Source: Propionibacteriaceae bacterium
GTDB taxonomy: Bacteria; Actinomycetota; Actinomycetes; Propionibacteriales; Propionibacteriaceae
NCBI GenBank assembly: GCA_031272505.1
Contig: JAISTQ010000054.1
Location: 1-64,000 of the forward strand
Direction of reading: 5' to 3'
Length of the DNA: 64,000 bases
Below are positions 279 to 18,104 of the stretch, in pieces (within the stretch, counting starts at the first letter, position 1; each line of letters starts with the position of its first letter). The notes under the pieces were generated by a model. That model was not told where the DNA came from, did no database searches, and saw nothing but the letters and a program-made list of their open reading frames with translations. The position numbers were made by a program, and so were the translations under genes.

Positions 279-369
279 GTTCAGATTTGAGTTGTTGTAG
301 TTCCGACGGCGTGTCAACTACAAGAACTCATCACCGAACCCCAGATCAGGCTCGGTGCGCGGCCGCCCA
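279..369. repeat. 91-bp direct repeat, copy 1 (with inverted repeat)
   Basis: The first 69 bases (279-347) are identical to 2368-2436, and similarity continues to about 369/2458. The repeat contains an inverted pair, GTTGTTGTAGTT and AACTACAAGAAC (11 of 12 positions pair), around a 13-base loop. It abuts the end of the HipA-like fragment on one side and the broken end of the nucleotidyltransferase gene on the other. It could be a recombination footprint, an attachment-like site or a small non-autonomous element; no transposase is present. Confidence 0.8.
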
Positions 370-379
370 GGGCGCTACT

Positions 380-706
380 TCACTTTGGCGCTGGTCTTGG
401 TGGCCGACCAAGCCCCATACAGCGAGCCCTTGTAGTCGCCACCCCGTCAAGATAGAACCCGAAACTCTCATCAAACTGGGACAGCTCCCCGGCAACCCCT
501 TCGAGAACATCCGCCAACGCCGCTGTTTGCTCATGCGTGGCGGCCTCGGGAAGAATGTCGATCTCACGCGACATGGTAGCCTCGGCGGGCAAGTCTTCAT
601 CGGTGAAGGAGCCCAGGATCGACTGGGAGCCGATCACGATCACATGATCCGAGTCGATGGCTGCGCAGGCAGCGCGAATTGAGTGGTAGAACTGCTCTTG
701 ATTCAC
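380..706 (-). pseudogene. Nucleotidyltransferase (toxin-like), C-terminally truncated
   Basis: A 108-residue reading frame whose N-terminal half looks like a small nucleotidyltransferase-fold protein: a GSQS motif at residues 26-29 and EID at 48-50, the spacing expected for the GS...(D/E)x(D/E) metal site of this fold. Related proteins (DUF6036 or AbiEii-like) are often the toxin half of toxin-antitoxin or abortive-infection pairs and transfer nucleotides to RNA or protein targets. The start codon overlaps the stop of the upstream XRE gene by 4 bases (703-706), so the two are translationally coupled. After about residue 90 the sequence turns into low-complexity RPPRPAP, close to repeat copy 1. 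The gene is therefore probably truncated and likely inactive. The exact family is an inference. Confidence 0.55.
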
Positions 707-1221
707 TTGAGGGACTCCAACACTTGGAGGCGTTCGGATTCGGAGAGGATTCCGGCGAACGGGGAAACCTCGCGCATCTGTTTGCCGTAGGTACCCACGT
801 CCAGCAGTGCGATGCGGATGCGCTTGACGTCACGGGCTTGGATGAGAGCCTTCCAGCGGGCGACGCGGCTAAGGTGCGGTTCGCCCCGGTTGTGCTGTTC
901 CAGCTTCGCCAGATTGGACGATACTTTCCCCTCCCATGCTTGCAGGGCCGCCTCGTCGAGCTTGCGAGAAATCTGACGGTGCAGCGCCCAGCTACGTTTC
1001 TCGGCCTTGGTGAAAACCGGCACCATCGCGCGCACCTCGAAGTGTGCCTCGAATCCCAACGCGCTGAGCAGCATCCGCGCCATCTCCTGAGACATGCCTG
1101 CTTTCCCAGCTAGATAGTAGCTGATCCGCCCTTGGCTCACCCCTGTCAGCGCAGACAACTCAACCTGTGTCACCGCCGACTCCCGCATCGCATCGCGGAT
1201 CGCCGTTTCCAAACTCTCCAT
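703..1221 (-). CDS. XRE-family HTH regulator, probable antitoxin
   Basis: A 172-residue protein with a helix-turn-helix near the N-terminus (about residues 17-52: VTQVELSALTGVSQGRISYYL), typical of XRE/Cro-type DNA-binding proteins. The rest, rich in basic and leucine residues, is not assigned. It is the first gene of a two-gene operon; its stop overlaps the start of a nucleotidyltransferase frame by 4 bases, the arrangement seen in many toxin-antitoxin pairs. A perfect AT-rich palindrome (1228-1250) lies just upstream of the ATG at 1221, so the protein very probably represses its own operon. No Shine-Dalgarno sequence is visible and the palindrome contains a TATGAT-like -10 element on the minus strand, so the mRNA may have almost no leader. 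Alternative: an orphan regulator whose partner has decayed. Confidence 0.75.
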   Translation of the reverse strand: MESLETAIRDAMRESAVTQVELSALTGVSQGRISYYLAGKAGMSQEMARMLLSALGFEAHFEVRAMVPVFTKAEKRSWALHRQISRKLDEAALQAWEGKVSSNLAKLEQHNRGEPHLSRVARWKALIQARDVKRIRIALLDVGTYGKQMREVSPFAGILSESERLQVLESLK

Positions 1222-1306: not shown

Positions 1307-1334
1307 TTGACATGGATGGCGCAGGTGTTATAAG
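1307..1334 (+). promoter_or_regulatory. Near-consensus housekeeping promoter
   Basis: TTGACA (1307-1312), a 16-base spacer, then TATAAG (1329-1334): a perfect -35 and a 5-of-6 -10. It points right, into about 1 kb without a credible coding region, so the transcript starting near 1341 should be non-coding. Confidence 0.65.
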
Positions 1335-1955
1335 TTGCTCTACTCGCCACAGACCAGCGAAAGGAGGTGGCTGGGTGAGTTACTCAGATGAAGGCGGAAG
1401 TTCCGTCTTGGCTGGTAGCCGATCACAGATGCGATTCTGTCGGTTGTTTGACAACTCAATAGGCTTGTACTTGTCCCAGGCCTCCGCAAGGCGGTCTGGT
1501 TAAATCTGCGTCAAGTCGGCGCAGTTGGCGCTAGCCAGAGCGGCTGGAGCCAAGATTCACGAGTTTCGGGGCATGGCCCATATGCCGTCGTGAGGCGGTG
1601 AAAGACGAGGTTGCCACCTCGTCGCCCGGCAACGGGTAGCCCATGCAAACCGACTGTGTGCCATGTGCCAGGGGTGCGTGGCCGATGTCAATAGCCGTGG
1701 TGAGGGATGGCGAATGCTGACCTCAGGGAGCGTACGCAGTTCCCGGCCACATTCAAGGTGACGGACGTCGAGCAGGAGGAAGGGTGAGAAGTCCGAGGCG
1801 TCAACCAAGGGCGGCACCCACGAACACCTGAACGGGAACGGCGGTTTTCGGGAGGGTCAAGCGTGTGAGTACCTGACCAGGAAAACACAGAGAAGGCGTT
1901 CGGCATTCGGTTGGCTCAAAAGGCCAATGGAACCGCTGGGAGAGCACGTCTTCGG

Positions 1956-2028
1956 CATCAAGTAGCTCAAAAGGTAGAGCGTCTGGCTCGACACCAGAAG
2001 GTTGCGGGTTCAATTCCCGTCTCGACTG
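1956..2028 (+). tRNA. tRNA-like fold inside the ncRNA, degenerate acceptor
   Basis: D-arm GCTC-AAAAGGTA-GAGC, anticodon arm TCTGG-CTCGACA-CCAGA, a five-base variable region, and T-arm GCGGG-TTCAATT-CCCGT are all intact, with T8, A9, GG in the D-loop and TTCAA in the T-loop. The formal anticodon is CGA (Ser), but a short variable loop and C37 are wrong for tRNA-Ser. The 5' acceptor strand (1956-1962) pairs with 2021-2027 at only four of seven positions, and no CCA is encoded. It is better read as a tRNA-like module or tRNA relic than as a working tRNA. Confidence 0.4.
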
Positions 2029-2307
2029 AAGCGAAAGTCTCTCCCCGTCAGGAGTGCGAAAGTGCCTTAATGCTCGACGGAGCAATCCGAATCGAGCGCT
2101 TGCGCAGCTCGCAAGGCTGTGCAGGTTCCATCAGGAGTAGTGCAGCGCAGCGGTTTGGCCGCCGTTGCGCGAAGCGAAAGTGGTGGAGTAGCCCCTGACG
2201 TAAGGATTGATTGGCCTAAGCAATCAGGCATGGAAGCTACTGTGGGGACACAGTGGAAAAGAAGGCAACGGGGGAATCCCCCGGTAAACCGACGAAAGGC
2301 TTCTAAT

Positions 2308-2332
2308 TAGGTGGGGTATTCCCACCCACCTA
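2308..2332 (+). terminator. Hairpin closing the ncRNA region
   Basis: TAGGTGGG and CCCACCTA form a perfect 8-bp stem around nine bases. No T-run follows, so this is a weak intrinsic terminator at best, or the 3' boundary of the RNA. Confidence 0.4.
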
Positions 2333-2367: not shown

Positions 2368-2458
2368 GTTCAGATTTGAGTTGTTGTAGTTCCGACGGCG
2401 TGTCAACTACAAGAACTCATCACCGAACCCCAGATCCAGATCGGTGAGCGGCCGCCCA
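2368..2458. repeat. 91-bp direct repeat, copy 2
   Basis: Second copy of the repeat at 279-369, same orientation, 2089 bases further on. It ends shortly before the stop codon of the metallopeptidase gene. Together the copies bracket the XRE/nucleotidyltransferase operon and the non-coding RNA candidate. Confidence 0.8.
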
Positions 2459-3513: not shown

Positions 3514-3629
3514 AAAAGGGAACGAGAAGGTCCTGTCGATGACGGGGAAAGGGTGAGGGGGTCCGTTGGTGACGGGGTGGGGGTGAGAGGCCCGCATCGA
3601 TGGCGATAGATGCGGTAGGATTTGGGGAA
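3514..3629. other. Intergenic region before the FMN riboswitch
   Basis: G-rich, with two imperfect copies of a TGACGGGG...GGTGAG motif and a perfect 7-bp hairpin CCGCATC/GATGCGG (3592-3615). A TAGGAT (3616-3621) could be the -10 of the riboflavin operon, but no convincing -35 is seen. Confidence 0.35.
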
Positions 3630-3762
3630 GTGCTCCGGGGTCGGTGAAAGTCCGAACCGGCGGTGAACGGGGTAAAGCCCGCAGCCCGCGAGCCACGTAA
3701 ATGCGTGGTTGATCTGGTGCGAATCCAGAGCCGACGGTTAAAGTCCGGATGGGAGGAAGCAC
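3630..3762 (+). promoter_or_regulatory. FMN riboswitch (RFN element)
   Basis: The conserved RFN blocks occur in order: GGTCGGTGAAAGTCC, GAACCGGCGGT, AAAGCCCGC, GCGAGCC, GATCTGGTG, AATCCAGAGCCGACGG, AAAGTCCGGATGGGAGG. The closing P1 stem is formed by GTGCT (3630-3634) and AGCAC (3758-3762). These elements bind flavin mononucleotide and shut off riboflavin synthesis or uptake genes when FMN is plentiful. It sits just upstream of the ribX start, so uptake is predicted to be on only when flavin is scarce. Confidence 0.96.
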
Positions 3763-3764
3763 TG

Positions 3765-3786
3765 GGCGGCGGCTTTTGCCGTTGCC
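3765..3786 (+). terminator. Riboswitch expression-platform hairpin
   Basis: GGCGGCGGC-TTTT-GCCGTTGCC, a 9-bp stem with two wobble pairs, directly follows the aptamer and is followed by ATCTTT. It ends 30 bases before the ribX start. It probably acts as the FMN-dependent terminator; an anti-terminator partner was not worked out. Confidence 0.6.
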
Positions 3787-3815
3787 ATCTTTGCGCCCCG
3801 GAGTTGGGAGGCGCG

Positions 3816-4568
3816 ATGAGTCGGACACTCACCACATTCGTCGCCCCACTGGGGCTGTTTGTGACGCTGGTGCTGGCCTGGTGGGCGGTGGCCGCCGTGT
3901 CTCCGCCGTATTTGCTGCCCGGCCCGGCTCCGACGGCGGCGCGGCTTGGCAGCGAGCTGCTGGGCGCGTCACTGTGGCAGCACCTGGGCTGGACGCTCGC
4001 CGAAGCCTTTGGCGGTTGCCTGCTGGGGGCGGCGGTGGCGCTCCCGTTGGCGCTGCTGATCCATCGCTCGAAGCTGGTGTCGGCGGCGGTGAATCCGTTC
4101 CTGGGCGCCACCCAGGCGATCCCGGCGATCGCGCTGGCCCCGCTGTTGGTGCTCTGGATCGGCTACGGGATGGGCGCGGTCGTCATCCTGTGCGCCTTGA
4201 TGGTGTTCTTCCCGATTCTGATCTCCGCCCGGTTGGGGCTCAAACACGTCAACCACGAACTGGTGGAGGCGGCGCGGTTGGACGGCGCGGGTTCGGCGCA
4301 GTTGTTCTGGCAGTTGGAAGGCCCGCTGGCGCTGCCCGCCGCGTTGGCCGGCATCCGCAATGGCTTCACGCTGTCGATCACCGGCGCGGTGGTGGGGGAG
4401 ATGGTGATGGGGGGCAACGGCCTCGGCACGCTGCTCACCGTGCAGCGCGACGCGGTGGACACCACCGGCATGTTCGCGTCCTTGATCGTGCTGTGCGTCT
4501 TCGCCGGCGGGATTTACTCCGGGGTACGCGCCCTGGATCATGCGGTATCAAGAAAGATAGGAGTATAG
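3816..4568 (+). CDS. ribX: ABC transporter permease, riboflavin uptake (RibX-like)
   Basis: A 250-residue integral membrane protein of the binding-protein-dependent permease family (BPD_transp_1), with about six hydrophobic segments. The EAA loop that docks the ATPase is visible at about residues 147-185 (ELVEAARLDGAGSAQLFW...GPLALPAALAGIRNG). The ATG at 3816 is chosen because GGGAGG lies at 3806-3811 and the first membrane segment follows directly. Its position behind an FMN riboswitch and in front of an NMT1/THI5-like lipoprotein matches the RibXY type of riboflavin importer; without the riboswitch it would be called a ThiX-like thiamine-precursor permease. The stop is two bases before the ribY start, so the genes are co-transcribed. 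No ATPase gene is adjacent. Confidence 0.85.
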   Translation: MSRTLTTFVAPLGLFVTLVLAWWAVAAVSPPYLLPGPAPTAARLGSELLGASLWQHLGWTLAEAFGGCLLGAAVALPLALLIHRSKLVSAAVNPFLGATQAIPAIALAPLLVLWIGYGMGAVVILCALMVFFPILISARLGLKHVNHELVEAARLDGAGSAQLFWQLEGPLALPAALAGIRNGFTLSITGAVVGEMVMGGNGLGTLLTVQRDAVDTTGMFASLIVLCVFAGGIYSGVRALDHAVSRKIGV

Positions 4569-4570
4569 AG

Positions 4571-5626
4571 ATGAGAAGTGCTCGCTACGCTCACGCGGGT
4601 TTTGTTCGTCGGAGTGCCTTCGGCTCCTCCTCGACCGATTCCCGGGCTATGCCCGAGAATGACGGGTTGAGGCTGAGGTTTCATGCGTTGCTTGCTATGA
4701 CACTGGCGATGATGTTGGCGGTGACGGGGTGTGCGGGGCAGCCGGAGACGGTGCAGGCGGTGGTCGGGTTGTCGTATATCCCGAACATCCAGTTTGGGCC
4801 GGTGTATGTGGCGGACGCGCAGGGCTGGGGCGGGAACGAGTCGATTTCGATCAGGCATCATGGCGCGGACGAGGGGTTGTTCACGGCATTGGCGGCTGGC
4901 GAGGAGCAGTTCGTGATCGCGGCCGGCGACGAGGGCCTACAGGCGGCGGAGCAGGGCATCGAGCTGGTGGCGGTCGCCCCCTACTACCTGGAGTACCCGG
5001 TGCGCATCATCGTCCCCGCCGAATCCGACATCACCGAATTAGCGGATTTACAAGGGAAAACGATCGGATTGCCGGGTAAATATGGGGAATCTTGGTTTGG
5101 GCTTTTGGTGGCATTGGACACCGCCGGTTTGAGCCAGGAAGATGTGGAGATCCAAGAGATCGGCTACACCGCGCAGGCGGCCCTGCCCACCGGCAAGGTG
5201 GATGCCGTGGTGGGATTCATCAATAACGATTTTGTGCAATTCCAGGCGGCGGGCGTAAATGTCCGCGCCTTGGAAGTCGCCCCCGATTCCGTCCCATTAG
5301 TGTCAGCCACCTTATTTACCACTTCAGAGTTTTATCAGAAACATAAAGATGTGGTTGAGACTGTGAAATCTTTCCTTCAAAAGGGAATAACGGAAAGCGT
5401 TGAAAATCCTGAGGCCGCCATCGAGGCGGCGGTGGATTACATCCCGAGTTTCAACGAGTCCGCGCAGCAGGCCGCCCGCGTCACCTTGGACGCCACGTTG
5501 GCGCTCATGGTTGACGCCGATGGGAACGTCCCAACGGCACTTGACGAGGGGCAATGGCAAGAGATGGGCGAGTTCCTGCAAGACGTGGGAGTGTTGCGGG
5601 AAAAATCCCGCGTGACGTTCTCATGA
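4571..5626 (+). CDS. ribY: Riboflavin-binding lipoprotein (RibY-like, NMT1/THI5 family)
   Basis: A 351-residue substrate-binding lipoprotein. The ATG at 4571 has AGGAG seven bases upstream. The lipobox LAVTGC places the lipidated Cys at residue 54, and the mature part (VVGLSYIPNIQFGPVYVADAQGW onward) has the NMT1/THI5-like fold used by transporters of thiamine precursors and riboflavin. The FMN riboswitch upstream points to riboflavin. Residues 2 to about 33 ahead of the signal peptide are odd: they are translated from a dispersed intergenic repeat, giving a Ser/Arg-rich leader. An alternative start is the ATG at residue 27 (4649). Bases 5035-5410 have clearly lower G+C than the rest. A perfect GCGGGA/TCCCGC hairpin lies in the last codons (about 5596-5611). 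Confidence 0.84.
   Translation: MRSARYAHAGFVRRSAFGSSSTDSRAMPENDGLRLRFHALLAMTLAMMLAVTGCAGQPETVQAVVGLSYIPNIQFGPVYVADAQGWGGNESISIRHHGADEGLFTALAAGEEQFVIAAGDEGLQAAEQGIELVAVAPYYLEYPVRIIVPAESDITELADLQGKTIGLPGKYGESWFGLLVALDTAGLSQEDVEIQEIGYTAQAALPTGKVDAVVGFINNDFVQFQAAGVNVRALEVAPDSVPLVSATLFTTSEFYQKHKDVVETVKSFLQKGITESVENPEAAIEAAVDYIPSFNESAQQAARVTLDATLALMVDADGNVPTALDEGQWQEMGEFLQDVGVLREKSRVTFS
4577..4665 (+). repeat. Dispersed repeat inside the ribY leader
   Basis: The segment with GCTCGCTACGC, TGTTCGTCGGAGTGCCT, and the ATTCCCGGGCTATGCCCGAGAATGACGG stem (split here: ATTCCCGGGC / GCCCGAGAAT / GACGG) also occurs inverted in the intergenic stretch around 19440-19503, and its stem resembles the REP-like family at 3451 and 18804. 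It is read in frame as ribY codons 3-33. Confidence 0.65.
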
Positions 5627-5777
5627 TGGAGGACGTGTTTACCGAAACCGGTTTTACAAGGTAAGGTGTCAAGCAACGTACACCTGATTTCCGCGTAGGG
5701 TTGGAGCTTTTCGCGGTTTTTAGGTGGTACTTGCCTGTCCACAAAAGTGGGTGGGTTCCTGCACGCCAGGGGGATCA
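5627..5777 (+). other. Leader region of giant adhesin gene 1
   Basis: Contains a 10-bp palindrome AAACCGGTTT (5645-5654) and a 6-bp hairpin AGGTGT/ACACCT (5664-5685). The ribosome site AGGGGG (5768-5773) precedes the ATG at 5778. No confident promoter was found. Confidence 0.35.
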
Positions 5778-8700
5778 ATGACGAATATGTGGGGTTCCGG
5801 ACACGGAACAAAAAGCGGGCGTTCGACAGCCGGCCGGGCAGGTAGTGCTGCCCTGGCCTTCGTGCTCTCAGTGGCTGGGTTGGTCAGCGTCCAAGGGATT
5901 ACTGCGCCCAGCGCCAGCGCCGATCCGGTGTGGACGCCGGTCAACGGCCTCACGCCGGTGTGGCACATCGATCCGGCCGCGTGGGATACCGATTCGCTCT
6001 ACATCGCCACCGGGCCGGGGGCCATCGCCAACGGCAACTCGTGGCTGATCGTGGATCGCGGCGTCTTCAATGGCGCGGGCGAGCTGGTGAGCAGCGAGCC
6101 GGTGCTCTCCCTGCAGAACAACTCGGGCGTCTATGCCTACGCGCAGAACTTCGACACCATGGCCGTGGGCACCGATCCGGCGAACCCGTCCCGCTTGGTC
6201 GCCTACTTCTGGGATTGGGATGGCACGGGCACTGGGCAGATCACCTGCACCGGCGCGAACACGGTTCCGGTCACCCGCATCTACAGCGGCCAGACGAGCA
6301 ATGTCGAGTTCACCTGCGTGCCTTGGCGCCAGGGCATCACCATGAATTCCCCCACTGGCGGCGAGGTGGATCAGCTCACCGGCAAGGTCTATCTCCAAGG
6401 TGGCACCAACACCACCATTGACGGCCGCGCCTGGGACAACACCGACGCGAACGCCTCCACCACCTTCGGCCTCATCATCTGGGATCCGATCACCGGCACC
6501 CAGGTCAGCTCGGGCACCGGCCTGATCCAGCCGGGCACCATGGCGGAGCGGCGCAATCTGAAGCGCAGCGTCGAATACGCGGGCGGCACCTGCCGGCTCA
6601 CCGCCTCCGGGCACGTGGGCGCGCTGGGCCCCTACACCACCTCCGACATGGCGCTTGACGCCTCGGGCAACATCTATATGTTCGCCACCTCTGATGGCTC
6701 CGGCACCAACTGCTCGCACGGCATCCTGCTCCGCATCGTCCCGTCCCGCAACGCCAGCACCGGCGAAATCATCGACGGCACCCCCGCCAATCCGTGGAAG
6801 TATTACGTCGTCGAGCACATCCTCCCCGAATCCGTCGGCGATTATTGGGGCACTGGCGGCGGCGGCATGGTCGGCTCCGCGTTCTTCCGCGGCGATCTCT
6901 ACGTGGGCGGCTACAACGCGATGCGCCACGGCTCCGAGGCTTACACCATCTACCGTTCAGTACTGAAAGTGGATCCGCTGGCCGCCACCGGCCGTCCGTA
7001 CGGCTTGACCACCGGCTTCTTCTATGACGCCTCCATCGGCGGCACCACAGGCGTGGCTGGCCGCGAATCCTACGACTTCGCCTCCGCGCAGACGGCGGCC
7101 ATCATCGAGGGCGTGGTTTACAACGATCCCAGCGGCCTCGGCCTGCACCCGGAGAATTTCACCACCCTGGCCGGTCAGACCGTCGCCCTCTACGACGCGG
7201 ACAACAAGCTGATCTCCCAGGAGGAGACGGATTCCGAAGGCCACTATTCCTTCATGGTGTACTCCGGCGTGGAAGGCGTGGACACCAAATACACCGTGCG
7301 CCTGGTCCAGCCGCACATCAACGTCGGCACCGACGCCTCGCCGGTTTGGCTGAACGCCATCCAAACCTGGGCCCGCGGCGGCGCCTGGCAGCCGGCCGGT
7401 TCCACCTATGCCGGCGAATTGAACAACGTCGTGCCGCAATGCTTCTACCACTTCAACGACACCGTCACCTCTCCCGACGGCACCCGCTGCTCGGGCGTCC
7501 AGCCGGCCACCCTGAAGCCGGATTCCCTCGACGATCTGGGCGACACCCGCGCGCTGGATGACATGAACATCGCCTCCGAGGTGCACATCATCACCGCCCG
7601 CGACGTGGCTGACGCCGATTTCGCGGTCACCATCAAGAACCGGAGTTGGGGTGACGCGCAGGGCACCACCAAGACGCTGCCCTCCGAGCAGGGCCCCAGC
7701 ACTGTCTACATCCAAGGGGCGGGCGTGGTATTGGGAGGCTCCTCGAATTCGTTCGAAGAAGCCGTCCATGATCCAGCGTCCAACGCCCATGGCGACCACG
7801 GCGTCACCCTGAAACTGGCCAATGGCTCCCGGCTGGAGTTGCAAGACCAGTTGTTCTCCAAGCAGCGCACCTACCACCTGACGGCGCACGCCGGCATCGA
7901 CGCCAGCTACCCCGGCCGGACGAACATGGACATGAAGGTGAAGTACTGGTTCTCCGGCTTCAGCACCGTGAACATTCCCTCCACGGCGCCAGCCACCTCC
8001 TTCACCAGGGTTGTCGATCCTTGGGAGATCTACACCGAGTACACCGCCCCGAACGATTCGGGCACCATGCTGCCCGGCGTCTTCCGCTTCGTGGTGTCCA
8101 CCGCCAACGTGACCCGGCCCGACAACACCACCAACGAGTACTGGCCCGAATGGGGCAGCGCCGCCGCCGAGACCCAGCCGTGGGTCATTGACGGCGAGGT
8201 GGAGGATTACCGGGTCTTCCTGGTGAGCTACCAGGTCCGCGCCGCGATCAAGGTCACCGGCGGCAATCTGGCCAACCAGCCCTATGTGGTAACCAACGCC
8301 GTCAACGGCGGCACCTCCAATCCGTCCACCACCTCCGGCGTGTTGACGGGCTACAACGGCACCCCGGCCACTTCCGCGTCGGTCCACGCCGTCGATTCGG
8401 CCGCCGCCGCCACCCGGATCACCCTCGATCCGCTGCCCACCGGCTTCGATTATGACTCAGCCGAATGCTACGGCTCCACCACCGGCTTCGCCCTCCCGGT
8501 TGACAAGTTCACCACCGGTTTTGACGGCAACAAGCCCTATGCCGAGATCGTCGCCGGGTACTTCGGCTCGGCCGGCCCGGACAACATCATCGACGACTTG
8601 ACGTGCCAGTTCAACGTCTCCAAGTCCATCGATCCGGATGAGTCTTCGTTGGCGCTCTCCGATACTTACACCGAGAACGGCTCCACCACCTCCGACGGCA

Positions 8701-11700
8701 AGACCGGCGTCAACTCCGAGATTGAGGCCACCGTCACCGCGAAGGCGGCCGACGGCACCCTGCTGCCCCAGAAGGTCATCTACTTCACCGTCCCCGGCGG
8801 CACCGACGTCACCGTGAAGGACGCGAACGACACCACGCTCACCGCGTCCGGCGGGTACTACACCTGCACCACCGGCAATGACGGCACCTGCAAGATCAAG
8901 CTGTCCTCCACCAAGGCGGCCGTCTACACCAACGGGCTGCACGCCTTGGTGAAAGTGCCCGCTTCGAACGCCACCCCGAACGAAGAGGTGACGAACAGCC
9001 CGGCCACCATCGAATATGTGGCGGGTTCCTGCGAAGCTGGCCCCACCGGCCACTCCTACTTCGACGTGGACGCCACCACCGCCGAGGTCGGCTCAGACGC
9101 GACGGACGGCGTCACCTTCACAATTAATTTAAGGGATCAGTACGACAACGCCTGCCAGCCGGTTTCCGGAGCGCTCACGCTCTCCAAGACGAACTCGGCC
9201 GTGATCGTCGGCCCGACGGCCACCGCCACCGTGGGCACCTACACCGCCCGCGTCTATGACGAGGTCGCGGAGACGTCGGACGTCACCCTCAAGCTCAACA
9301 ACGACAACATAAACGTCTCCACCCTGCCGGGCCACGTGGCCACCGCGAACCCGCAGCCCATCGTCTTCACGCCGGGTCCGGTGGACACCGTGAACTCCAC
9401 CGTCACCATCGCGCCGACGGTCACCGGTCAGCCGGTGCTGGCGAACAACTCCGACACCTACACCATCACGGCCACCGTGCAAGATGAGTTCCACAACCCG
9501 CTGGCACGGACGGTCACCTTCGGGGTGGTCACCGGCACCGCCACCTTGAGCGGCACCGGCGAATGCACCACCGCCACCACCGGCACCAACGCGGGCAAGT
9601 GCACCGTCACCGTGCAGTCCTCCACCGTGGGCACCGCCACCATCGCGGCCACCATTACCGAGGGCGCGCTCACCGGCAGCCCGGTCTCCGCCACCTTCTC
9701 GCCCGGCGATCCGTCGCAGACGAACTCCGAGGTGGTAATCACCAAGGGCAACAACGACACCACCAAGGCCGCGGGCCCGATCGAGGCCGGCCAGGCCTAC
9801 ACCGTCGAGGTCACCGTGAAGGACGCCCAGGGCCACGCGCTGGACGGCAAGGCGGTGCAGTTCTACAAGGGCTCCAACACCACTCCGGAGACGGGCACCT
9901 ACACCACCGGCAACGACGGCAAGGTCACCTACTCCTGGACGGAAACCGTGGCTGACGATCCGGCCACCACCGGCGTCAATGAGGGCTCCCACATCCTGCA
10001 CGCGAAGATCCTGGTCGGCTCCACCTGGGAGGACGTCACCTACTCGCCGCTGACGCGGGTGTGGAATTCGTCCACCCAGCCGGACGCCTCCAAGTCGTAC
10101 CTGCAGATTGACGGCAACACCGAGGCCGCGTCGGTCTCCGTGGCCGGCGGCACCCACACCGTGAAGGTCACCCTCTACGATCAGTACGGCAACCTGGTCT
10201 CCGGCGCCCCGGTCACCTTCGAGTGCACCTCGACGAACTGCGCGTCGGCCACCATCGCCGCCGCTTCGGGCACCAGCGCCGCGGGCGTCTACTACACCAC
10301 CGTCAACTCCTTCGTGGCGGGCGATTACTCCATCAAGGCGAAGTACGGCAACGCGGGCGATGCCACCGCCACCATCCAGGTGGCCAAGCTGGGTAATGAC
10401 GCCACCCCGGCGGTGCTCACCACCGGCGACACGGTGGTGGCGAAGTTCCACTCCACCACCATCGACGCCGACAAGTCCGAGCTTTCCGTCTCCCCGGTTG
10501 GCCCGCTCACCGTGGGCACCACCTCCACGTACACCGCCACCGTCACCGGCTATGACGGCCTGGGCACCGCGAATGGCGGCAAGGGCAACCTGGTCGGCGG
10601 GCAGCAGATCAAGTTCACCCTCGTCGAGGTCGTGAACGGCTCCGAGACGGCTATCGACACTTCCAAGACGACGCTCTCGGCGTCCACCTGCACCACGGAA
10701 AGCGCGGCGGGCTCCACGTTTGGCACCTGCCATGTGGAGTTCACCTCCACCAAGGCGGGCACCTTCCGGATCAAGGCGTTCACCAGCCTCGACGACGACA
10801 TCGACCATGCGGATCGGGTCTTCGAGCCGGGCACCATCGACGCCTCGAAGTCCACCTTCGACGTGGTGAACCGGGATGCCTATCCGAAGGTCTCGAACAT
10901 CACCGGCGTGCCCGCTGGCACCGACACCAACTGGTGGATCGTGCGGATCGCCGCGCAGGACGAGTTCGGCAACTACATCTCCGATCTGAACACCATCACC
11001 TCCTCGGCCGAGTTCATCAACAAGGCCGATCAGAACTCCGGCGTCTACTTCTCCTCAATTATTAAGGTGGACGCGAACGCCGATCCGGACGGCACCGGGC
11101 CGGGCACCGCGCTCAGCTACCCGACGTTCATTGCCTACGCCCGCACCACCAAGGCCGGCGAATGGTCGCTGGGCGCGCGGGCGACGGGCGGCACCCAGGC
11201 GCAGATCGGCTCCTTCATCCCGAAGAAGTGGGATCCGGGCACCGTCGATCCGAACAAGGTCTCCTACGTGCTCACCAACAACACCGGCGTCGCGGCAGAC
11301 GGCATCGCCACCCAGACGGCCACCATCACCGTCCGCGACACCTTCGACAACCCGATTCCGGGCCACCTTGTGAAGATCACCAACGTCACCACCGGCGACG
11401 ACAACCCCACCAAGCTGGTCTTCGGGCCGAGCACCTCCGGTGAGGGCGCCACCTCGAACGAGACCGGCCACGTCGGCGAGTACGTTTTCACTTTGTCCTC
11501 CACGGCGGCTCGCTCCTATGACATCCGGGGTTGGGTGCAGAATGCGGCGGGCACCGATTACGTGTCCATCCCGATCACCAGCTACACCACCGCCAACCCG
11601 CAGACCACCAATTTCGTCGCCTCGACCTGCTCGGCGCCGGATTCGCTGCTGAACGTGGACAAGACGACCACCGCCGTCGGCACCAACATCGCCGCCACCA

Positions 11701-14700
11701 TCACCCTGATGGACGCGCAGGGCAACGTCTGCACCTCTTCGGGCACCCCGGCGCTGGTCTTTGAGGCCGGCTCTTCGGGCACCGCCTCCACCATCACCGG
11801 CTCCGGCGGGGTCTACACCGCCACGGTCACCGACACCAAGGCGGAGAGCTTCGATCTCTCCGCCACGCTCGGCGGCACCCCGGTGGGCAAGACGCAGGTG
11901 GGTACCGGCACGGTTACCGCCAGCCCCACCGTCGAGTTGACGTTCACCGTGGGCGAAGTCAGCCTCACCCACTCTGATCTCACCATCGATTCGCCGACGT
12001 ACGTCTCCGCGGACGGCACCGGCCAGCACGTGGCCACCGTCACGCTGCGCGACCAGTACGGCAATCCGGAGCCTGGCAAGCAGGTGACTTTCTCGCTGCA
12101 CGCGGCGCTGACGCAGAAGACCTCTGGCGTCGCCGCCGACATCTGCACCTCGCTGATCTGCACCACCGGCGCGGACGGCACCGCGAAGATTGTCGTCACC
12201 TCGGTCTATTCGACGACGTACTACGACTCAGATCGCAAGGGCTCGTTCGACATCGGGGCCACCTACCTCGGCAGCACGATCCAGAACACCGACACCCCGA
12301 CGCGCGGCAACACCGTGAAGGCGAACTACGAGCAGGGCGGCGCTTCGGCCACCCACTCCACCTTGACGATGGAGCGCGACTCCTCCGCGCACGCCGTGGT
12401 CTCCGTGGACGACGTCCCCGGCTACCAGGCGAAGGTGCTGGTCAAGAATGACGCCGACCAGATCGTCATCGGCGCCTCGGTGGTCTTCACCCTGGACAAT
12501 GGCGCGCTGTTTGGCAACAACCAGCCCAGCTACACCGTGGTCTCCAACGACCAGGGCTACGCGGTGGTCACCCTCTACTCGCATGTGCTCGCCTCCGGCA
12601 ACGCCACCACGTTGACGGCCACCATCGGCGGCGTCGCGGTGAGCGGCTCCCCGCTGCACCCGACGTTCACCGTGGGCGCGCCCTTCGTGGGCCAGGCGGC
12701 GGAGAACGGCGATCCGGCCACCCGCGTCGCCATCGACAACTCCGATCCGGTCGCGGCAGACGGCACCAGCAGCCACAAGGTCACCATCTACGCGGTGGAC
12801 CGCTACGGCAACATCCTGCCGAACGTGAACGTGCGTGTCTCGCAGGCGAATGCCGACGGCACCGCCTACACCGGCACCGAGAACGTCAGCTTCTCGGCCA
12901 ACACCGGCATCACCGACATCACCGGCAAGGTGGAGCTCTACGTGCGTTCCACCAACTCGGGCGATTTCTACGTGAAGGCTGAGGTGGTCAAGGATCAGAC
13001 GGTCACCAGCCCCGATCCGGTCACCGGCTGGCAGACGGCCTACAACTCGCCGGTCAAGGCCGTGTTCAGCGCGGGCCTGGGCGACACCGGCAACTCGTCC
13101 TTCACCGTCAGCCCCACCGGGCCGTTGACGGTTGGCGAGACTTCCGCCTCCGATTACACGGTGACGACCACCGTCCGCGACGCCAACAACAACCTGGTGT
13201 CCGGCGCCACGGTCACCCTCGCCACCGATCCGACCACCGGCGTCAGCTATCCGAACGGCGCCACCTGCGTCACCTCGTCGATCTCCGGTGCCGGATTTGG
13301 CACCTGCGGTATCGCGGTGCGTTCCACCAAGGCCGGGGTGTTCGCCCTGAAGCCGTCGATCACCGCTGGGTTGATCGGCTCCGAGAACCGCACCTGGGAG
13401 GCCTCCACCATTGACGCCTCGAAGTCCAGCTTCGAGGTGCTGGAGCGCTCCACCGATCCGAAGGTCTCGGATGTGACAGGCCTGCCCACCGGCACCGACA
13501 CCGATTGGTGGATCGTGCGGCTCAGCGCGCAGGACGAGTACGGCAACTATATTGACGATCTCTCCGCCATCCAGTCTGCGGCCGAGTTCATCAACAAGTC
13601 CGATCAGAACTCCGGCGTCTACTTCTCCTCCATGGTGAAGATCCCGGCGGGCACCGATCCGGACGGCTCCGGCTTGGGCACCGCGGTCGCCTATCCGACG
13701 TACATCGCCTACGCCCGCACCACCAAAGCCGGCGAATGGTCGCTGGGCGCGCGGGCGACGGGCGGCACCCAGGCGCAGATCGGCTCGTTCATCCCGAAGA
13801 AGTGGGAGCCCACCACGGTGGACGCCGCCCACTCCACGTATGTCTTGACGGACACCGCCGACATCTACGCGAACGGCACCGCCACCCAGACGGCCACCAT
13901 CACCGTGCGCGACCGGTTCGGCAACCCGATTCCGGGCCACCTGGTGCGGATCACCAACGTCACCACCGGCGACGACAGCCCCACCAAGCTGGTCTTCGGG
14001 CCGAGCACCTCCGGTGAGGGCGCCACCTCGAACGAGACGGGCCACGTCGGCGAATACGTGTTCACCCTGGCCTCCACCTCGGCGCGCAGCTACAGCATCC
14101 AGGCTTGGGTGCGCAACGCGACCGGCACCGCTTGGGAATCCGTCCCGGTGTCCACGTACACCACCGCCAACCCGCAGTCCACGCACTTCGTGGCGGGCTC
14201 CTGCTCGGCGGCCAACTCGATTCTCGCGGTTGACAAGACCTCCGCCACCGTGGGCACCAACATCGCCGTCACCATCTCCTTGAAGGACGCGGTCGGCAAC
14301 GCCTGCAACTCGGGCACCCCGCCGGCGCTGGTCTTCGAATCCGGCTCCTCGGCGACGGGCTCCACGGTCACCGGCTCGGCGGGCACCTACACCGCCACCG
14401 TGACGGACACCAAGGCGGAGAGCTTCGATCTCTCCGCCACCATCGGCGGCACCCCGATCGGCACCATCAAGGTCGGTTCGGCGGCGGCCACCACGGGCAC
14501 CGCGATTGAGTTGACGTTCACCGCCGACGTGGTAGACGTCACCCATTCGTCGATCACCATCGATTCGGCCGAGTTCGTCTCCGCTGACGGCTCCGGCCAG
14601 CACACCGTGACGGCCACCCTGCGCGACCAGTACGGCAACCCGGTCGCCAACGCGCCGGTGGCGTTCACCTTGCACGCCGCGCTGGCGCAGAAGACCACCG

Positions 14701-17700
14701 GCTTGGCCACCGGCATCTGCTCGTCCTTGCTGTGCACCACCGGCAGTGATGGCACCGCGAAGATCGTGGTCACCTCGGTCTACTCGGCCACCTACTACAA
14801 CACCACCACCTACGAGGGCTCCTTCGAAGTGGCGGCCGCCTACCAGAGCCAGGCGGTGCCGAACACCGAGACCCCGGTCGGCTACTCGGTGCTGGCGAAC
14901 TACAAGCAGGGCGGCGCTTCGGCCACCCACTCGACGTTGACGCTGGAGCGGGCGCTTGGCTCGCACAACCCGGTCACCGTCGACGACGTGCCCGGCTATG
15001 AGGCCAAGGTGCTGGTGAAGAACGCCGCCGATCAGGTCGTGGTGGGCGCCACCGTGGTCTTCACCATCGACAATGGCGCGCTCTTCGGCAACAACCTGGC
15101 CACCTACTCGGTGGAGTCGAACTCTTCGGGTTACGCCACCGTCGCGGTCTACTCGCACGTGTTGGCCACCGGCACCCAGACGACGTTGACGGCCACCATC
15201 GGCGGCGTCGAGGTGGGCTCGTCGCCGGTGCATCCGACGTTCACCGTGGGCAAGCCGTTCGTGGGCCAGGCCGCCGAGAATGGCGATCCGGCCACCCGCG
15301 TCGCCATCGACAACGACACCGCGGTGACGGCTGATGGCAACACCACCCACAAGGTCACCGTCTACGCGGTCGACCGCTACGGCAACATCCTGCCGAATGT
15401 GGACGTCCGGCTCAGCCATGTGAACGCCGACGGCACGCCGTATACCGGCACCTCGCCGATCACCTTCACCTCGGCCACCGGCACCACCAACACCTCCGGC
15501 CTGGTGGAGCTGTACGTGAAGTCCACCGACTCTGGCGACTTCTACATCAAGGCCGAGGTCGTCAACGACCAGACGGTCGCCAACCCCGATCCGGTCACCG
15601 GTTGGCAGACGGCCTACAACTCGCCGGTGAAGGCCGTGTTCGGCGCGGGCGCGGGCACCACGGGGAACTCCTCGTTCACCATCACCCCGCCCGGTCCGCT
15701 CCCGGCGGGCACTGGTTCGGGCTCTGAGTATTTGGTGACGACCACCGTCCGCGACGCCAACAACAACTTGGTGCCGAGCGCCGTGGTCACCCTGAACACC
15801 TCGCCGACCACCGTCACCTTCCCCGGCAGCCAGACGTGCATCACCATGGCGACTGGCGTCTGCTCGATCTCCGTGAGTTCCACGACGGCGGGCACCTACG
15901 CCTTGAAGCCGACGATCGCCGCCGGTGAGATCGGCTCCGAAAACCGCACCTGGACGCCCGGCCCGGTGGACGCCAGCTCGTCCGGCTATGTGTTGACGAA
16001 CACCGCGGATGTGGTGGCGGACGGCAACGGCACGCAGACGGCCACCTTGACGGTCAAGGATGCCTACGGCAACCCGATCTCCGGCCACAAGGTGCGGATC
16101 ACCAACGTCACCACCGGCGACGCCTCGCCGTCGAAACTGGTGCTGACGCCGGCCAGTGGCGAATCCGTGACGGGCTCTTCCGGCACCGCGACGTTCAGCC
16201 TCGCTTCCACGCAGGCGCGCACCTACAGCATCCAGGCTTGGGTGCGCAACGACGCCGACACCGATTGGATTTCCATCCCGGTCTCGGCCACCACCGTGGC
16301 CAACCCGGCGGACACCTCGTTCGTCTCCGGCCCGATCTCGTTGACGCATTCCGAGCTGGAGGTCACTCCGGCGGGCCCGCTCACCGTGGGCGAGACGTCG
16401 GCTGCGGATTACACCGCGAAGACGACCGTGCGCGATCAGAATGACAACCCGATCACCGGCGTGGCGGTCACCGTCAGCGTTTCCCCGTCCGGCCCGACGT
16501 TCCCGAATGGGGCCACCTGCTCCACCGGCGCGGACGGCTCCTGCTCGGTCGCGGTGCGCTCCACGGAGGCCGGCACCTACACCATCAGCTCCGCGATTCC
16601 GCTGGGCAACGTGGGTTCGGCCAGCCGCACTTGGGTAGCCGGTCCGGTGGATGCCGGCTCGTCCGGTTACACCTTGACGAACACCGCCAATGTGATCGCG
16701 GACGGCACCGGCACGCAGACGGCCACCATCAGCGTCAACGACGCCTACGGCAACCCGATTTCCGGCCACAAGGTGCGGATCACCAACGTCACCACCGGCG
16801 ACGCTTCGCCGACGAAGCTGGTGTTGGTGCCTGCCAATGGCGAATCGGTCACCGGCTCCGACGGCACGGCCAGCTTCTCCTTGTCCTCCACGCAGGCGCG
16901 TACCTACAGCATCCAGGCTTGGGTGCGCAACGACGCGGACACCGATTGGGTCTCCATCCCGGTCTCCACGCTCACCGTGGCGAACCCGGCGGAAACCTCG
17001 TTCGTCTCCGGCCCGATCTCGCTGGCGCATTCGGAGTTCACGATCACCCCGGCGGGCCCGCTCACCGTGGGTGAGACGGCCGCCTCGGATTACACCGTGA
17101 CGACCTACGTGCGCGATGTGAACGACAACCCGGAGGCGGGCGTGACGGTCACCATCACCGTCTCGCCGACCGGCCCGACGTTCCCGAACGGCGCGACGTG
17201 CACCACCGGCGCGGACGGCTCCTGCTCGGTCACCACCCGTTCCACCGTGGCGGGCACCTTCGCCTTCGAATCGGCGATTCCGCTCGGCAAGGTCGGGCAG
17301 CCGATCTCGCGGGTCTGGAGCCCGGATGTGGTCTGCGGCGCGGATTGCACCCCGGCTCCGGGCGTGGATAACGCGCATCGCACCCGGCTGGATGTCACCC
17401 AGGACAACCAGGCAGCGAACGGCACCGCGCGTGACATCGTGAAGGCCTACGGCTTCGACAAGTACGGCAACCCGGTACCGGGCGCCACCGTGGTCACCAC
17501 CGCCACGGACGCGGATCTGATCCTGATCAACCCGACGGTCACCTTGGGCGACGACGGCTCGGTGGAGCTCTACTACTCCACGCTGGCCGCCAAGTCCTAT
17601 CAGGTGGAGGCCACCGTGGGTGGCGCCAAGCCGCTCAACTCGCCGGCGACGATCACCTTCTTTGATCCGAACCCGAAGAGCGCGGCGGGCATCACCGGCC

Positions 17701-18104
17701 CGGAGAAGATCGAGGTGGAAACTGACTACGAGACGGCCGTCGACATCGACGTGCTCGCCGAGTATGTCACCACGGCCACTCCGCTGATCATCGCCTCGTA
17801 CACGCAGCCGGAGAACGGCACGGTCACCTTCGCACCAGACAGCACCGCCCTCGATGTGGTCAACGCCGCCGGGATGCTCACCTACATCCCGAACGACGGC
17901 TACTCCGGCGTGGACACCTTCTCCGTCACCGTCAGCAACGCGGACGGCACCACCAAGACGAGCACCGTCGCGGTCACCGTCGGCGAAGCCCCGCTGGTGC
18001 TCACCGGCGGCGACACCCTCACCTCGAACTGGCCGCTGGCAGCCCTGCTCGCCACCACCGGCCTCATCCTGGTCGGTGCCTTCCGCCGCCAACGCCGCAA
18101 GTGA
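5778..18104 (+). CDS. Giant Ig-repeat surface protein 1 (4108 aa)
   Basis: A secreted, repeat-built surface protein, probably an adhesin. The ATG at 5778 has AGGGGG upstream and gives a 48-residue signal peptide ending SASA. An N-terminal region to about residue 435 contains GGEVDQLTG and SDMALDASGNIYMF motifs (possibly propeller-like, not assigned). A Cna-B/SdrD-type domain follows (about 440-520, IIEGVVYND...), then a GEVED-type module (GEVEDY near 805). From about 955 to 3960 come roughly 25-30 Big_1/invasin-type Ig domains, recognised by repeated D.YGNP(V/I).G and ST.AGTY patterns. A Big_9/cadherin-like domain (about 3970-4070), LVLTGGDTLTSN, one membrane segment and RRQRRK end the protein. 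No LPxTG motif is present. Function is inferred from architecture. Confidence 0.9.
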   Translation: MTNMWGSGHGTKSGRSTAGRAGSAALAFVLSVAGLVSVQGITAPSASADPVWTPVNGLTPVWHIDPAAWDTDSLYIATGPGAIANGNSWLIVDRGVFNGAGELVSSEPVLSLQNNSGVYAYAQNFDTMAVGTDPANPSRLVAYFWDWDGTGTGQITCTGANTVPVTRIYSGQTSNVEFTCVPWRQGITMNSPTGGEVDQLTGKVYLQGGTNTTIDGRAWDNTDANASTTFGLIIWDPITGTQVSSGTGLIQPGTMAERRNLKRSVEYAGGTCRLTASGHVGALGPYTTSDMALDASGNIYMFATSDGSGTNCSHGILLRIVPSRNASTGEIIDGTPANPWKYYVVEHILPESVGDYWGTGGGGMVGSAFFRGDLYVGGYNAMRHGSEAYTIYRSVLKVDPLAATGRPYGLTTGFFYDASIGGTTGVAGRESYDFASAQTAAIIEGVVYNDPSGLGLHPENFTTLAGQTVALYDADNKLISQEETDSEGHYSFMVYSGVEGVDTKYTVRLVQPHINVGTDASPVWLNAIQTWARGGAWQPAGSTYAGELNNVVPQCFYHFNDTVTSPDGTRCSGVQPATLKPDSLDDLGDTRALDDMNIASEVHIITARDVADADFAVTIKNRSWGDAQGTTKTLPSEQGPSTVYIQGAGVVLGGSSNSFEEAVHDPASNAHGDHGVTLKLANGSRLELQDQLFSKQRTYHLTAHAGIDASYPGRTNMDMKVKYWFSGFSTVNIPSTAPATSFTRVVDPWEIYTEYTAPNDSGTMLPGVFRFVVSTANVTRPDNTTNEYWPEWGSAAAETQPWVIDGEVEDYRVFLVSYQVRAAIKVTGGNLANQPYVVTNAVNGGTSNPSTTSGVLTGYNGTPATSASVHAVDSAAAATRITLDPLPTGFDYDSAECYGSTTGFALPVDKFTTGFDGNKPYAEIVAGYFGSAGPDNIIDDLTCQFNVSKSIDPDESSLALSDTYTENGSTTSDGKTGVNSEIEATVTAKAADGTLLPQKVIYFTVPGGTDVTVKDANDTTLTASGGYYTCTTGNDGTCKIKLSSTKAAVYTNGLHALVKVPASNATPNEEVTNSPATIEYVAGSCEAGPTGHSYFDVDATTAEVGSDATDGVTFTINLRDQYDNACQPVSGALTLSKTNSAVIVGPTATATVGTYTARVYDEVAETSDVTLKLNNDNINVSTLPGHVATANPQPIVFTPGPVDTVNSTVTIAPTVTGQPVLANNSDTYTITATVQDEFHNPLARTVTFGVVTGTATLSGTGECTTATTGTNAGKCTVTVQSSTVGTATIAATITEGALTGSPVSATFSPGDPSQTNSEVVITKGNNDTTKAAGPIEAGQAYTVEVTVKDAQGHALDGKAVQFYKGSNTTPETGTYTTGNDGKVTYSWTETVADDPATTGVNEGSHILHAKILVGSTWEDVTYSPLTRVWNSSTQPDASKSYLQIDGNTEAASVSVAGGTHTVKVTLYDQYGNLVSGAPVTFECTSTNCASATIAAASGTSAAGVYYTTVNSFVAGDYSIKAKYGNAGDATATIQVAKLGNDATPAVLTTGDTVVAKFHSTTIDADKSELSVSPVGPLTVGTTSTYTATVTGYDGLGTANGGKGNLVGGQQIKFTLVEVVNGSETAIDTSKTTLSASTCTTESAAGSTFGTCHVEFTSTKAGTFRIKAFTSLDDDIDHADRVFEPGTIDASKSTFDVVNRDAYPKVSNITGVPAGTDTNWWIVRIAAQDEFGNYISDLNTITSSAEFINKADQNSGVYFSSIIKVDANADPDGTGPGTALSYPTFIAYARTTKAGEWSLGARATGGTQAQIGSFIPKKWDPGTVDPNKVSYVLTNNTGVAADGIATQTATITVRDTFDNPIPGHLVKITNVTTGDDNPTKLVFGPSTSGEGATSNETGHVGEYVFTLSSTAARSYDIRGWVQNAAGTDYVSIPITSYTTANPQTTNFVASTCSAPDSLLNVDKTTTAVGTNIAATITLMDAQGNVCTSSGTPALVFEAGSSGTASTITGSGGVYTATVTDTKAESFDLSATLGGTPVGKTQVGTGTVTASPTVELTFTVGEVSLTHSDLTIDSPTYVSADGTGQHVATVTLRDQYGNPEPGKQVTFSLHAALTQKTSGVAADICTSLICTTGADGTAKIVVTSVYSTTYYDSDRKGSFDIGATYLGSTIQNTDTPTRGNTVKANYEQGGASATHSTLTMERDSSAHAVVSVDDVPGYQAKVLVKNDADQIVIGASVVFTLDNGALFGNNQPSYTVVSNDQGYAVVTLYSHVLASGNATTLTATIGGVAVSGSPLHPTFTVGAPFVGQAAENGDPATRVAIDNSDPVAADGTSSHKVTIYAVDRYGNILPNVNVRVSQANADGTAYTGTENVSFSANTGITDITGKVELYVRSTNSGDFYVKAEVVKDQTVTSPDPVTGWQTAYNSPVKAVFSAGLGDTGNSSFTVSPTGPLTVGETSASDYTVTTTVRDANNNLVSGATVTLATDPTTGVSYPNGATCVTSSISGAGFGTCGIAVRSTKAGVFALKPSITAGLIGSENRTWEASTIDASKSSFEVLERSTDPKVSDVTGLPTGTDTDWWIVRLSAQDEYGNYIDDLSAIQSAAEFINKSDQNSGVYFSSMVKIPAGTDPDGSGLGTAVAYPTYIAYARTTKAGEWSLGARATGGTQAQIGSFIPKKWEPTTVDAAHSTYVLTDTADIYANGTATQTATITVRDRFGNPIPGHLVRITNVTTGDDSPTKLVFGPSTSGEGATSNETGHVGEYVFTLASTSARSYSIQAWVRNATGTAWESVPVSTYTTANPQSTHFVAGSCSAANSILAVDKTSATVGTNIAVTISLKDAVGNACNSGTPPALVFESGSSATGSTVTGSAGTYTATVTDTKAESFDLSATIGGTPIGTIKVGSAAATTGTAIELTFTADVVDVTHSSITIDSAEFVSADGSGQHTVTATLRDQYGNPVANAPVAFTLHAALAQKTTGLATGICSSLLCTTGSDGTAKIVVTSVYSATYYNTTTYEGSFEVAAAYQSQAVPNTETPVGYSVLANYKQGGASATHSTLTLERALGSHNPVTVDDVPGYEAKVLVKNAADQVVVGATVVFTIDNGALFGNNLATYSVESNSSGYATVAVYSHVLATGTQTTLTATIGGVEVGSSPVHPTFTVGKPFVGQAAENGDPATRVAIDNDTAVTADGNTTHKVTVYAVDRYGNILPNVDVRLSHVNADGTPYTGTSPITFTSATGTTNTSGLVELYVKSTDSGDFYIKAEVVNDQTVANPDPVTGWQTAYNSPVKAVFGAGAGTTGNSSFTITPPGPLPAGTGSGSEYLVTTTVRDANNNLVPSAVVTLNTSPTTVTFPGSQTCITMATGVCSISVSSTTAGTYALKPTIAAGEIGSENRTWTPGPVDASSSGYVLTNTADVVADGNGTQTATLTVKDAYGNPISGHKVRITNVTTGDASPSKLVLTPASGESVTGSSGTATFSLASTQARTYSIQAWVRNDADTDWISIPVSATTVANPADTSFVSGPISLTHSELEVTPAGPLTVGETSAADYTAKTTVRDQNDNPITGVAVTVSVSPSGPTFPNGATCSTGADGSCSVAVRSTEAGTYTISSAIPLGNVGSASRTWVAGPVDAGSSGYTLTNTANVIADGTGTQTATISVNDAYGNPISGHKVRITNVTTGDASPTKLVLVPANGESVTGSDGTASFSLSSTQARTYSIQAWVRNDADTDWVSIPVSTLTVANPAETSFVSGPISLAHSEFTITPAGPLTVGETAASDYTVTTYVRDVNDNPEAGVTVTITVSPTGPTFPNGATCTTGADGSCSVTTRSTVAGTFAFESAIPLGKVGQPISRVWSPDVVCGADCTPAPGVDNAHRTRLDVTQDNQAANGTARDIVKAYGFDKYGNPVPGATVVTTATDADLILINPTVTLGDDGSVELYYSTLAAKSYQVEATVGGAKPLNSPATITFFDPNPKSAAGITGPEKIEVETDYETAVDIDVLAEYVTTATPLIIASYTQPENGTVTFAPDSTALDVVNAAGMLTYIPNDGYSGVDTFSVTVSNADGTTKTSTVAVTVGEAPLVLTGGDTLTSNWPLAALLATTGLILVGAFRRQRRK
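10836..13409 (+). repeat. Adhesin 1 super-repeat, copy A (2574 bp)
   Basis: An 858-codon block starting at IDASKS. It matches 13410-15965 at a constant offset of 2574 bases through most of its length. It contains the DTxWWIVR module, Ig domains with VTTGDD and the AAENGDPATRV segment. Parts are nearly identical at DNA level, for example around 11160 and 13734. Confidence 0.85.
13410..15965 (+). repeat. Adhesin 1 super-repeat, copy B
   Basis: Second copy of the block at 10836-13409, slightly shortened near its 3' end. It is followed by two shorter tandem blocks of 227 codons (15966-16646 and from 16647) that reuse the second domain of the unit. Confidence 0.85.

Follow-up and report, generated by a model that had tools for sequence, protein, structure and literature searches.

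A stand-alone gene for a GOLLD RNA, comprising a promoter, a boxA-like leader, two domains and a tRNA-shaped insert, occupies positions 1307-2333 of the window, by which we mean the whole 64,000-nucleotide stretch of Propionibacteriaceae DNA that was analysed. The locus joins a known class and is not a class of its own. GOLLD RNAs are among the largest structured bacterial RNAs and are usually phage or prophage genes, often near tRNA islands; nearly all work on them concerns phages and tRNA arrays. Less expected relative to the known GOLLDs are the stand-alone chromosomal setting and the leader with an rrn-type boxA. The features of the locus and its flanks are as follows.

1-276: C-terminus of HipA, upstream of GOLLD
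279-369, plus strand: dispersed imperfect palindromic repeat, apparent left boundary of a cassette, pairs with 2368-2458
380-706, minus strand: short unmatched ORF, upstream of GOLLD
703-1221, minus strand: XRE-type regulator, upstream of GOLLD
1307-1334, plus strand: promoter (-35 TTGACA at 1307-1312, 16-nt spacer, -10 TATAAG at 1329-1334)
1341-1562, plus strand: 5' leader of the transcript with several hairpins, ~220 nt, predicted extent
1425-1440, plus strand: hairpin ACAGA-TGCGAT-TCTGT in a boxB-like position just upstream of boxA
1447-1462, plus strand: rrn-type boxA TTTGACAACTCAATAG by sequence match, putative Nus-factor antitermination signal
1565-1890, plus strand: GOLLD 5' domain
1891-2328, plus strand: conserved GOLLD 3' domain (RF02032)
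1956-2028, plus strand: tRNA-like cloverleaf in the GOLLD linker slot (ARAGORN tRNA-Ser(CGA); Rfam tRNA at 1958-2025)
2309-2332, plus strand: 3' terminal hairpin AGGTGGGGTATTCCCACCCACCT, last GOLLD stem, from sequence and fold
2368-2458, plus strand: dispersed imperfect palindromic repeat, apparent right boundary of the cassette, pairs with 279-369

Identification of the GOLLD RNA

A cmscan search of positions 1200-2450 returned a full-length, untruncated match to the Rfam GOLLD family RF02032 (model positions 1-416) at 1891-2328 on the plus strand, with a score of 186.3 bits against a gathering cut-off of 150 and an E-value of 1.5e-52 for this 1.25-kb stretch. Apart from GOLLD and the tRNA match at 1958-2025, no Rfam family was found in the same stretch at E <= 1, and ROOL, HEARO and group II introns, all unmatched at this threshold, were ruled out. 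A preliminary description of the locus had proposed a large ornate non-coding RNA, with GOLLD named first among the classes for an Rfam search, and the match bears this out. It had likewise seen no credible protein, in agreement with a longest ORF of at most 95 aa in 1307-2332; a single conserved protein was ruled out by these ORF lengths and by homologues that conserve base pairing. The source genome holds one GOLLD.

The RF02032 model covers the last ~440 nt only and omits the 5' domain at about 1565-1890, which has blastn similarity to phage GOLLDs and is aligned and covarying in six homologues. It opens with a closed domain, GGGGCATGGCCCATA...GTAGCCCATGC, at about 1568-1652, and by analogy with the cryo-EM structure may correspond to the cap domain. 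With predicted ends, the GOLLD measures 769 nt without the leader and ~990 nt with it, consistent with the class layout of a separate, less conserved 5' domain and a total of ~800 nt or more.

Fold and covariation

The computed folding energy of the RNA 1345-2335 is -435.6 kcal/mol, compared with -378.8 +/- 8.1 for shuffled sequences (z -7.0), and none of 20 shuffles folded as well. Six actinobacterial GOLLDs were aligned, RNAalifold gave a consensus of 168 pairs, and 92.9% of the consensus-pair cells held standard pairs. Compensatory change on both sides was observed in 73 of the 168 pairs, while the shuffled mean was 40.7 and none of 500 shuffles reached 73. The covariation score of 0.481 fell to 0.068-0.125 once partners were slid by 1-3 columns, a control that is favoured by the consensus structure having come from the same alignment, although the margin is still large. 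The GOLLD structure is under selection here.

The three hairpins named in the preliminary description were all located, and two of them are kept by compensatory change. CCCG-GCAA-CGGG is present at 1625-1636, CGGA-GCAA-TCCG inside GCTCGA/TCGAGC is helix 20 of the alignment (compensatory change in five of ten pairs) and ACTGTG-GGGA-CACAGT is helix 28 (four of six pairs); the covariation that it had posed as a question proved to be strong in the six homologues. No U-tract follows the terminal hairpin 2309-2332 in the sequence, and the 3' end of the RNA may therefore come from processing or from an unseen terminator. In the other GOLLD of the genus, from genome G163 (L014 9540-10326, minus strand), the helix that matches TTGATTGGCCTAAGCAATCA of the window has a loop enlarged by an extra insertion of ~30 nt.

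Homologues and distribution

The GOLLD of G163 is 77% identical to the window over 1568-2339. Cluster M mycobacteriophages reach 78% identity over window positions 1565-1651 in the 5' domain (blastn), while pCBMA213 of Mycolicibacterium shows 69% over 1903-2197 and is alignable through both domains, and RF02032 was detected in all of these homologues alike. GOLLDs were found in two of 198 family genomes, both of the same genus, and 392 genomes drawn from the whole order yielded the same two only, both searches having used stricter filters by which weak matches are lost.

A GOLLD at the syntenic place in relatives was rejected, as the syntenic Zn-peptidase orthologues in the genus members G160 and G161 stand without one beside them. 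The G163 GOLLD occurs in another context, adjoining tRNA-Gly and a MraZ/MazE-like protein. These two observations indicate that the gene is an accessory one and has been mobile over evolutionary time.

Genomic setting

Downstream of the GOLLD are a YpfJ-type Zn-metallopeptidase and then an FMN-riboswitch transporter. The latter region (3628-5626) has an FMN riboswitch (100 bits) before an ABC permease and an NMT1-like binding protein and is probably a riboflavin-related transporter. Two giant open frames were also observed, at 5724-18104 (4126 aa), which reads as a repetitive surface protein, and at 19727-40480 (6917 aa).

No phage genes were recognised with Pfam and PHROGs among the nearest genes in either the window or G163, and a surrounding prophage was rejected, since the nearest genes (HipA C-terminus, XRE regulator, short ORF, Zn-metallopeptidase and ABC transporter) include no hallmark. 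The phage or prophage setting that is typical of GOLLDs, though not strictly defining, is thus absent here. ARAGORN found no second tRNA in the window besides the element at 1956-2028, and a tRNA-Ala lies 2.7 kb into contig C66, which adjoins the window. A duplicated tRNA 3' end that could serve as an attachment site was found neither at this tRNA-Ala nor at the tRNA-Gly of G163, and the attachment-site reading was rejected.

The window begins at a contig end whose first 119 bases are shared, without a mismatch, with the end of C66 (1-119; L015 1-119), and HipA is split across both contigs; further along C66 come HipA and HipB, an AbiEi-like ORF and the tRNA-Ala. The locus is flanked by a 91-nt direct repeat (279-369 and 2368-2458, 96% identical), of which a third copy is a 92-nt match at C66:1358-1449 (L015); the repeat belongs to a dispersed ~60-90-nt imperfect palindrome with 16 matches in the genome, which may be REP-like or a recombination site. 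The similarity of the right repeat to the C66 copy begins at 2338, just past the 3' end of the GOLLD. By the placement of these repeats, hipBA and the regulator-plus-GOLLD pair look like neighbouring repeat-bounded cassettes. The association with mobile DNA and tRNAs drawn in the preliminary description thus holds in part: the embedded tRNA-like element, the repeats and the toxin-antitoxin-like genes agree with it, but phage genes were not found. The cloverleaf at 1956-2028, the leader boxA and the 91-nt flanking repeat had not been mentioned there.

Promoter, leader and boxA

The TTGACA-16-TATAAG arrangement earlier noticed in front of the RNA is present at 1307-1334 and is, judged by its hexamers, a promoter of the sigma-70 type, with a predicted RNA start near 1341. 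Identical hexamers at the same 16-nt spacing lie upstream of the G163 GOLLD. The leader 1341-1562 is mostly diverged between the two, save around boxA and near the start. The hairpin at 1425-1440 does not exceed random segments in stability, in G163 a hairpin of other sequence occupies the equivalent spot upstream of boxA, and a boxB-like reading of it is weak.

The leader boxA, TTGACAACTCAATAG (1448-1462), matches the host rrn form TTGAGAACTCAACAG and lies downstream of the promoter, the arrangement of an antitermination leader. In all Propionibacteriaceae loci examined TTGAGAACTCAACAG sits 144-314 nt upstream of 16S, the survey counting only loci whose contig reaches a recognisable 16S start; the pattern TTTGANAACTCAATAG was too narrow to recover rrn leaders. 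Only two TTGANAACTCAANAG sites occur in the 2.23-Mb source genome, one in the GOLLD leader and the other in the rrn leader, 216 nt upstream of the 16S rRNA gene on contig C55. The G163 leader retains CTTGACAACTCAATAA amid otherwise diverged sequence.

Related sites were located ahead of GOLLDs in tRNA arrays. In the phages PegLeg and Bongo, TTGAGAACTCAATAG immediately precedes the tmRNA of a tmRNA-tRNA-GOLLD array; in the phage contigs L017, L018 and L020, CTTGATAACTACATAG follows tRNA-Trp where the array begins; and pCBMA213 has CTTGAGAACTCCACAGTGTG ahead of the first annotated tRNA of its array. Exact matches to TTGANAACTCAA near GOLLDs comprised four upstream on the sense strand, none downstream and none antisense; two of the four are from one phage species and the genes of the window and G163 are homologous, so that the independent cases are few. 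Most non-actinobacterial phage GOLLDs are without the actinobacterial boxA form, and boxA as a universal feature of phage GOLLDs was rejected, this form being confined to actinobacterial GOLLDs. Four lake-type GOLLDs have matches to TTGACAACTAAACA at about -180, which probably lie within the GOLLD itself.

An rrn-type boxA (TTGAGAACTCAAYAGYG) is also widespread in the viral contigs L204-L283, in at least 120 stretches and sometimes 100-330 nt before tRNA arrays. Among the matches listed, a tRNA lay within 2 kb downstream of boxA-like sites in actinophage contigs in 7 of 80 cases. As boxA is common in actinophage contigs outside tRNA arrays and hence not GOLLD-specific, the actinophage motif is a general antitermination-type signal and no GOLLD hallmark. 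The boxA variant of the GOLLD leader, together with a near repeat (TTGACAACTCAATAGCAACGACAACTCAATA), was also noted at L086 5402 (G071:C5:72401), and GOLLD was not found in G071, the family member that carries it.

In E. coli, boxA recruits NusB/NusE and shields untranslated rRNA from Rho (PMC4807359). The match of the leader site to the rrn form suggests that the GOLLD may be antiterminated through its boxA. Reports linking GOLLD with boxA or with antitermination were not found in an incomplete coverage of the literature.

The tRNA-like linker

The position of the element at 1956-2028 coincides exactly with the variable linker of the 3' domain. It has a class I shape with a short variable loop, a mismatched acceptor stem and no encoded CCA; a true tRNA-Ser has a long variable arm. 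The corresponding linker of G163 keeps the cloverleaf helices and has lost the T-loop motif and the anticodon. In a survey of 51 phage, plasmid and chromosomal GOLLDs the slot held an ARAGORN tRNA in 20, with varied anticodons, and many others had a short linker. The inserts differ between near relatives, L017 and L018 sharing one and L020 having another; in these three phage contigs the tRNA-like insert is swapped while the remaining RNA is similar, as in a modular tRNA slot.

From these features, 1956-2028 looks like a tRNA-shaped structural element or relic and is probably not a functional tRNA-Ser. This fits the pseudo-tRNA described within a mycobacterial GOLLD, whose expression was not detected (PMC6582537), and the finding that GOLLD linkers can carry tRNAs and point into the cage (PMC12286853).

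Proposed expression, assembly and origin

We consider it quite probable that the locus as a whole is best explained as a stand-alone GOLLD gene with boxA antitermination, trimming, cage assembly and a phage-type origin. Transcription from ~1341 would produce a non-coding RNA of ~990 nt, and elongation of this untranslated RNA would be protected from Rho by a Nus antitermination complex of the rRNA type that loads at boxA. The leader would then be trimmed to leave a GOLLD of ~770 nt, which would form a homo-oligomeric cage held together by RNA-RNA contacts, in which the tRNA-like linkers point inwards. A phage-type GOLLD is the probable source of the gene, which would now be a chromosomal accessory cassette.

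The GOLLD env-38 forms a homo-oligomeric 14-mer cage by cryo-EM (PMC12286853), and by analogy the Propionibacteriaceae GOLLD may assemble in the same manner. Leads to a role are phage lysis and ribosome pull-down (PMC12286853), and the expression of another GOLLD rises during phage lysis according to work cited in the same paper. On these published grounds only, the likeliest role would be one in phage infection or in retaining components of translation.

An RNA class unrelated to GOLLD, or plain intergenic DNA, has a negligible probability. The first 550 nt are without any Rfam family and the model fits the last 440 nt only, yet the E-value of the GOLLD match and the homology of the 5' domain to phage GOLLD 5' domains oppose such a reading, and the match and the covariation have already refuted it. 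It is also very improbable that the embedded tRNA-Ser(CGA) is functional and the GOLLD chiefly a precursor or carrier releasing it. ARAGORN and Rfam both call the tRNA, tRNAs with varied anticodons occupy the same slot in other GOLLDs and tRNA-containing linkers are known (PMC12286853), but the short class I variable loop is unlike that of real tRNA-Ser, the acceptor is mismatched without CCA, the G163 slot lost its T-loop motif and anticodon while the cloverleaf helices stay, and the embedded pseudo-tRNA of Mycobacterium was not detectably expressed (PMC6582537).

A decaying prophage remnant, with the GOLLD a fossil whose expression and selection ended after the phage was lost, is unlikely. 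It would agree with the phage or prophage origin typical of GOLLDs, the degenerate embedded tRNA, surroundings of degraded-looking toxin-antitoxin-like genes and repeats, and the occurrence in only two of the 198 family genomes. However, the promoter, leader boxA and stems are shared with G163 despite 23% divergence and compensatory changes keep the pairs, no phage gene remnants were recognised beside either copy, and the full GOLLD model is matched without truncation. Less easily dismissed, though still doubtful, is that the resemblance to boxA is fortuitous or the site does something else, for instance as a conserved part of the folded leader, and that the GOLLD is transcribed without antitermination. 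The motif is short, it differs from the family rrn form at two places (C for G at the N position and T for C near the end) and similar sites are widespread in actinophages; against this stand the finding of just two matches in 2.23 Mb, of which the second is that of the rrn leader, the retention of the site inside the otherwise diverged G163 leader and the related sites ahead of phage and plasmid GOLLD arrays.

Returning to antitermination through boxA, the broader proposal that rRNA-type boxA/Nus antitermination operates in the synthesis of actinobacterial GOLLDs, phage-borne and chromosomal alike, and that in this genus the GOLLD is now a stand-alone accessory gene outside a prophage, has in our judgement an even chance of being correct.

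A boxA leader suggests why a long untranslated GOLLD would escape Rho and ties its expression to the ribosomal RNA machinery. A chromosomal GOLLD with its own promoter is a simple genetic system, in which deletion or expression is possible without a phage.

Comparison with known systems

The locus shares with RF02032 GOLLDs the full-length 3' domain, the two-domain layout and the variable linker able to hold a tRNA (PMC12286853 for the linker), but it has no surrounding phage or prophage genes, has a promoter directly upstream and a boxA leader, and belongs to a diverged Propionibacteriaceae lineage. The GOLLD tRNA arrays of mycobacteria, cluster M phages (PegLeg and Bongo) and pCBMA213 have the same 5' and 3' domains, a tRNA-like linker and a boxA-like site ahead; there the GOLLD lies amid many tRNAs and HNH endonucleases, with a tmRNA in the phages, whereas here it stands alone. 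ROOL RNA is likewise large and ornate, occurs in phages close to tRNAs and forms a cage (PMC12286853), but the locus has no ROOL match in Rfam even at E <= 1. With the rRNA operon leader it has in common the boxA sequence, its promoter-proximal position and its place before a long untranslated RNA, and differs in that no rRNA follows and in carrying the variant TTGACAACTCAATAG rather than TTGAGAACTCAACAG.
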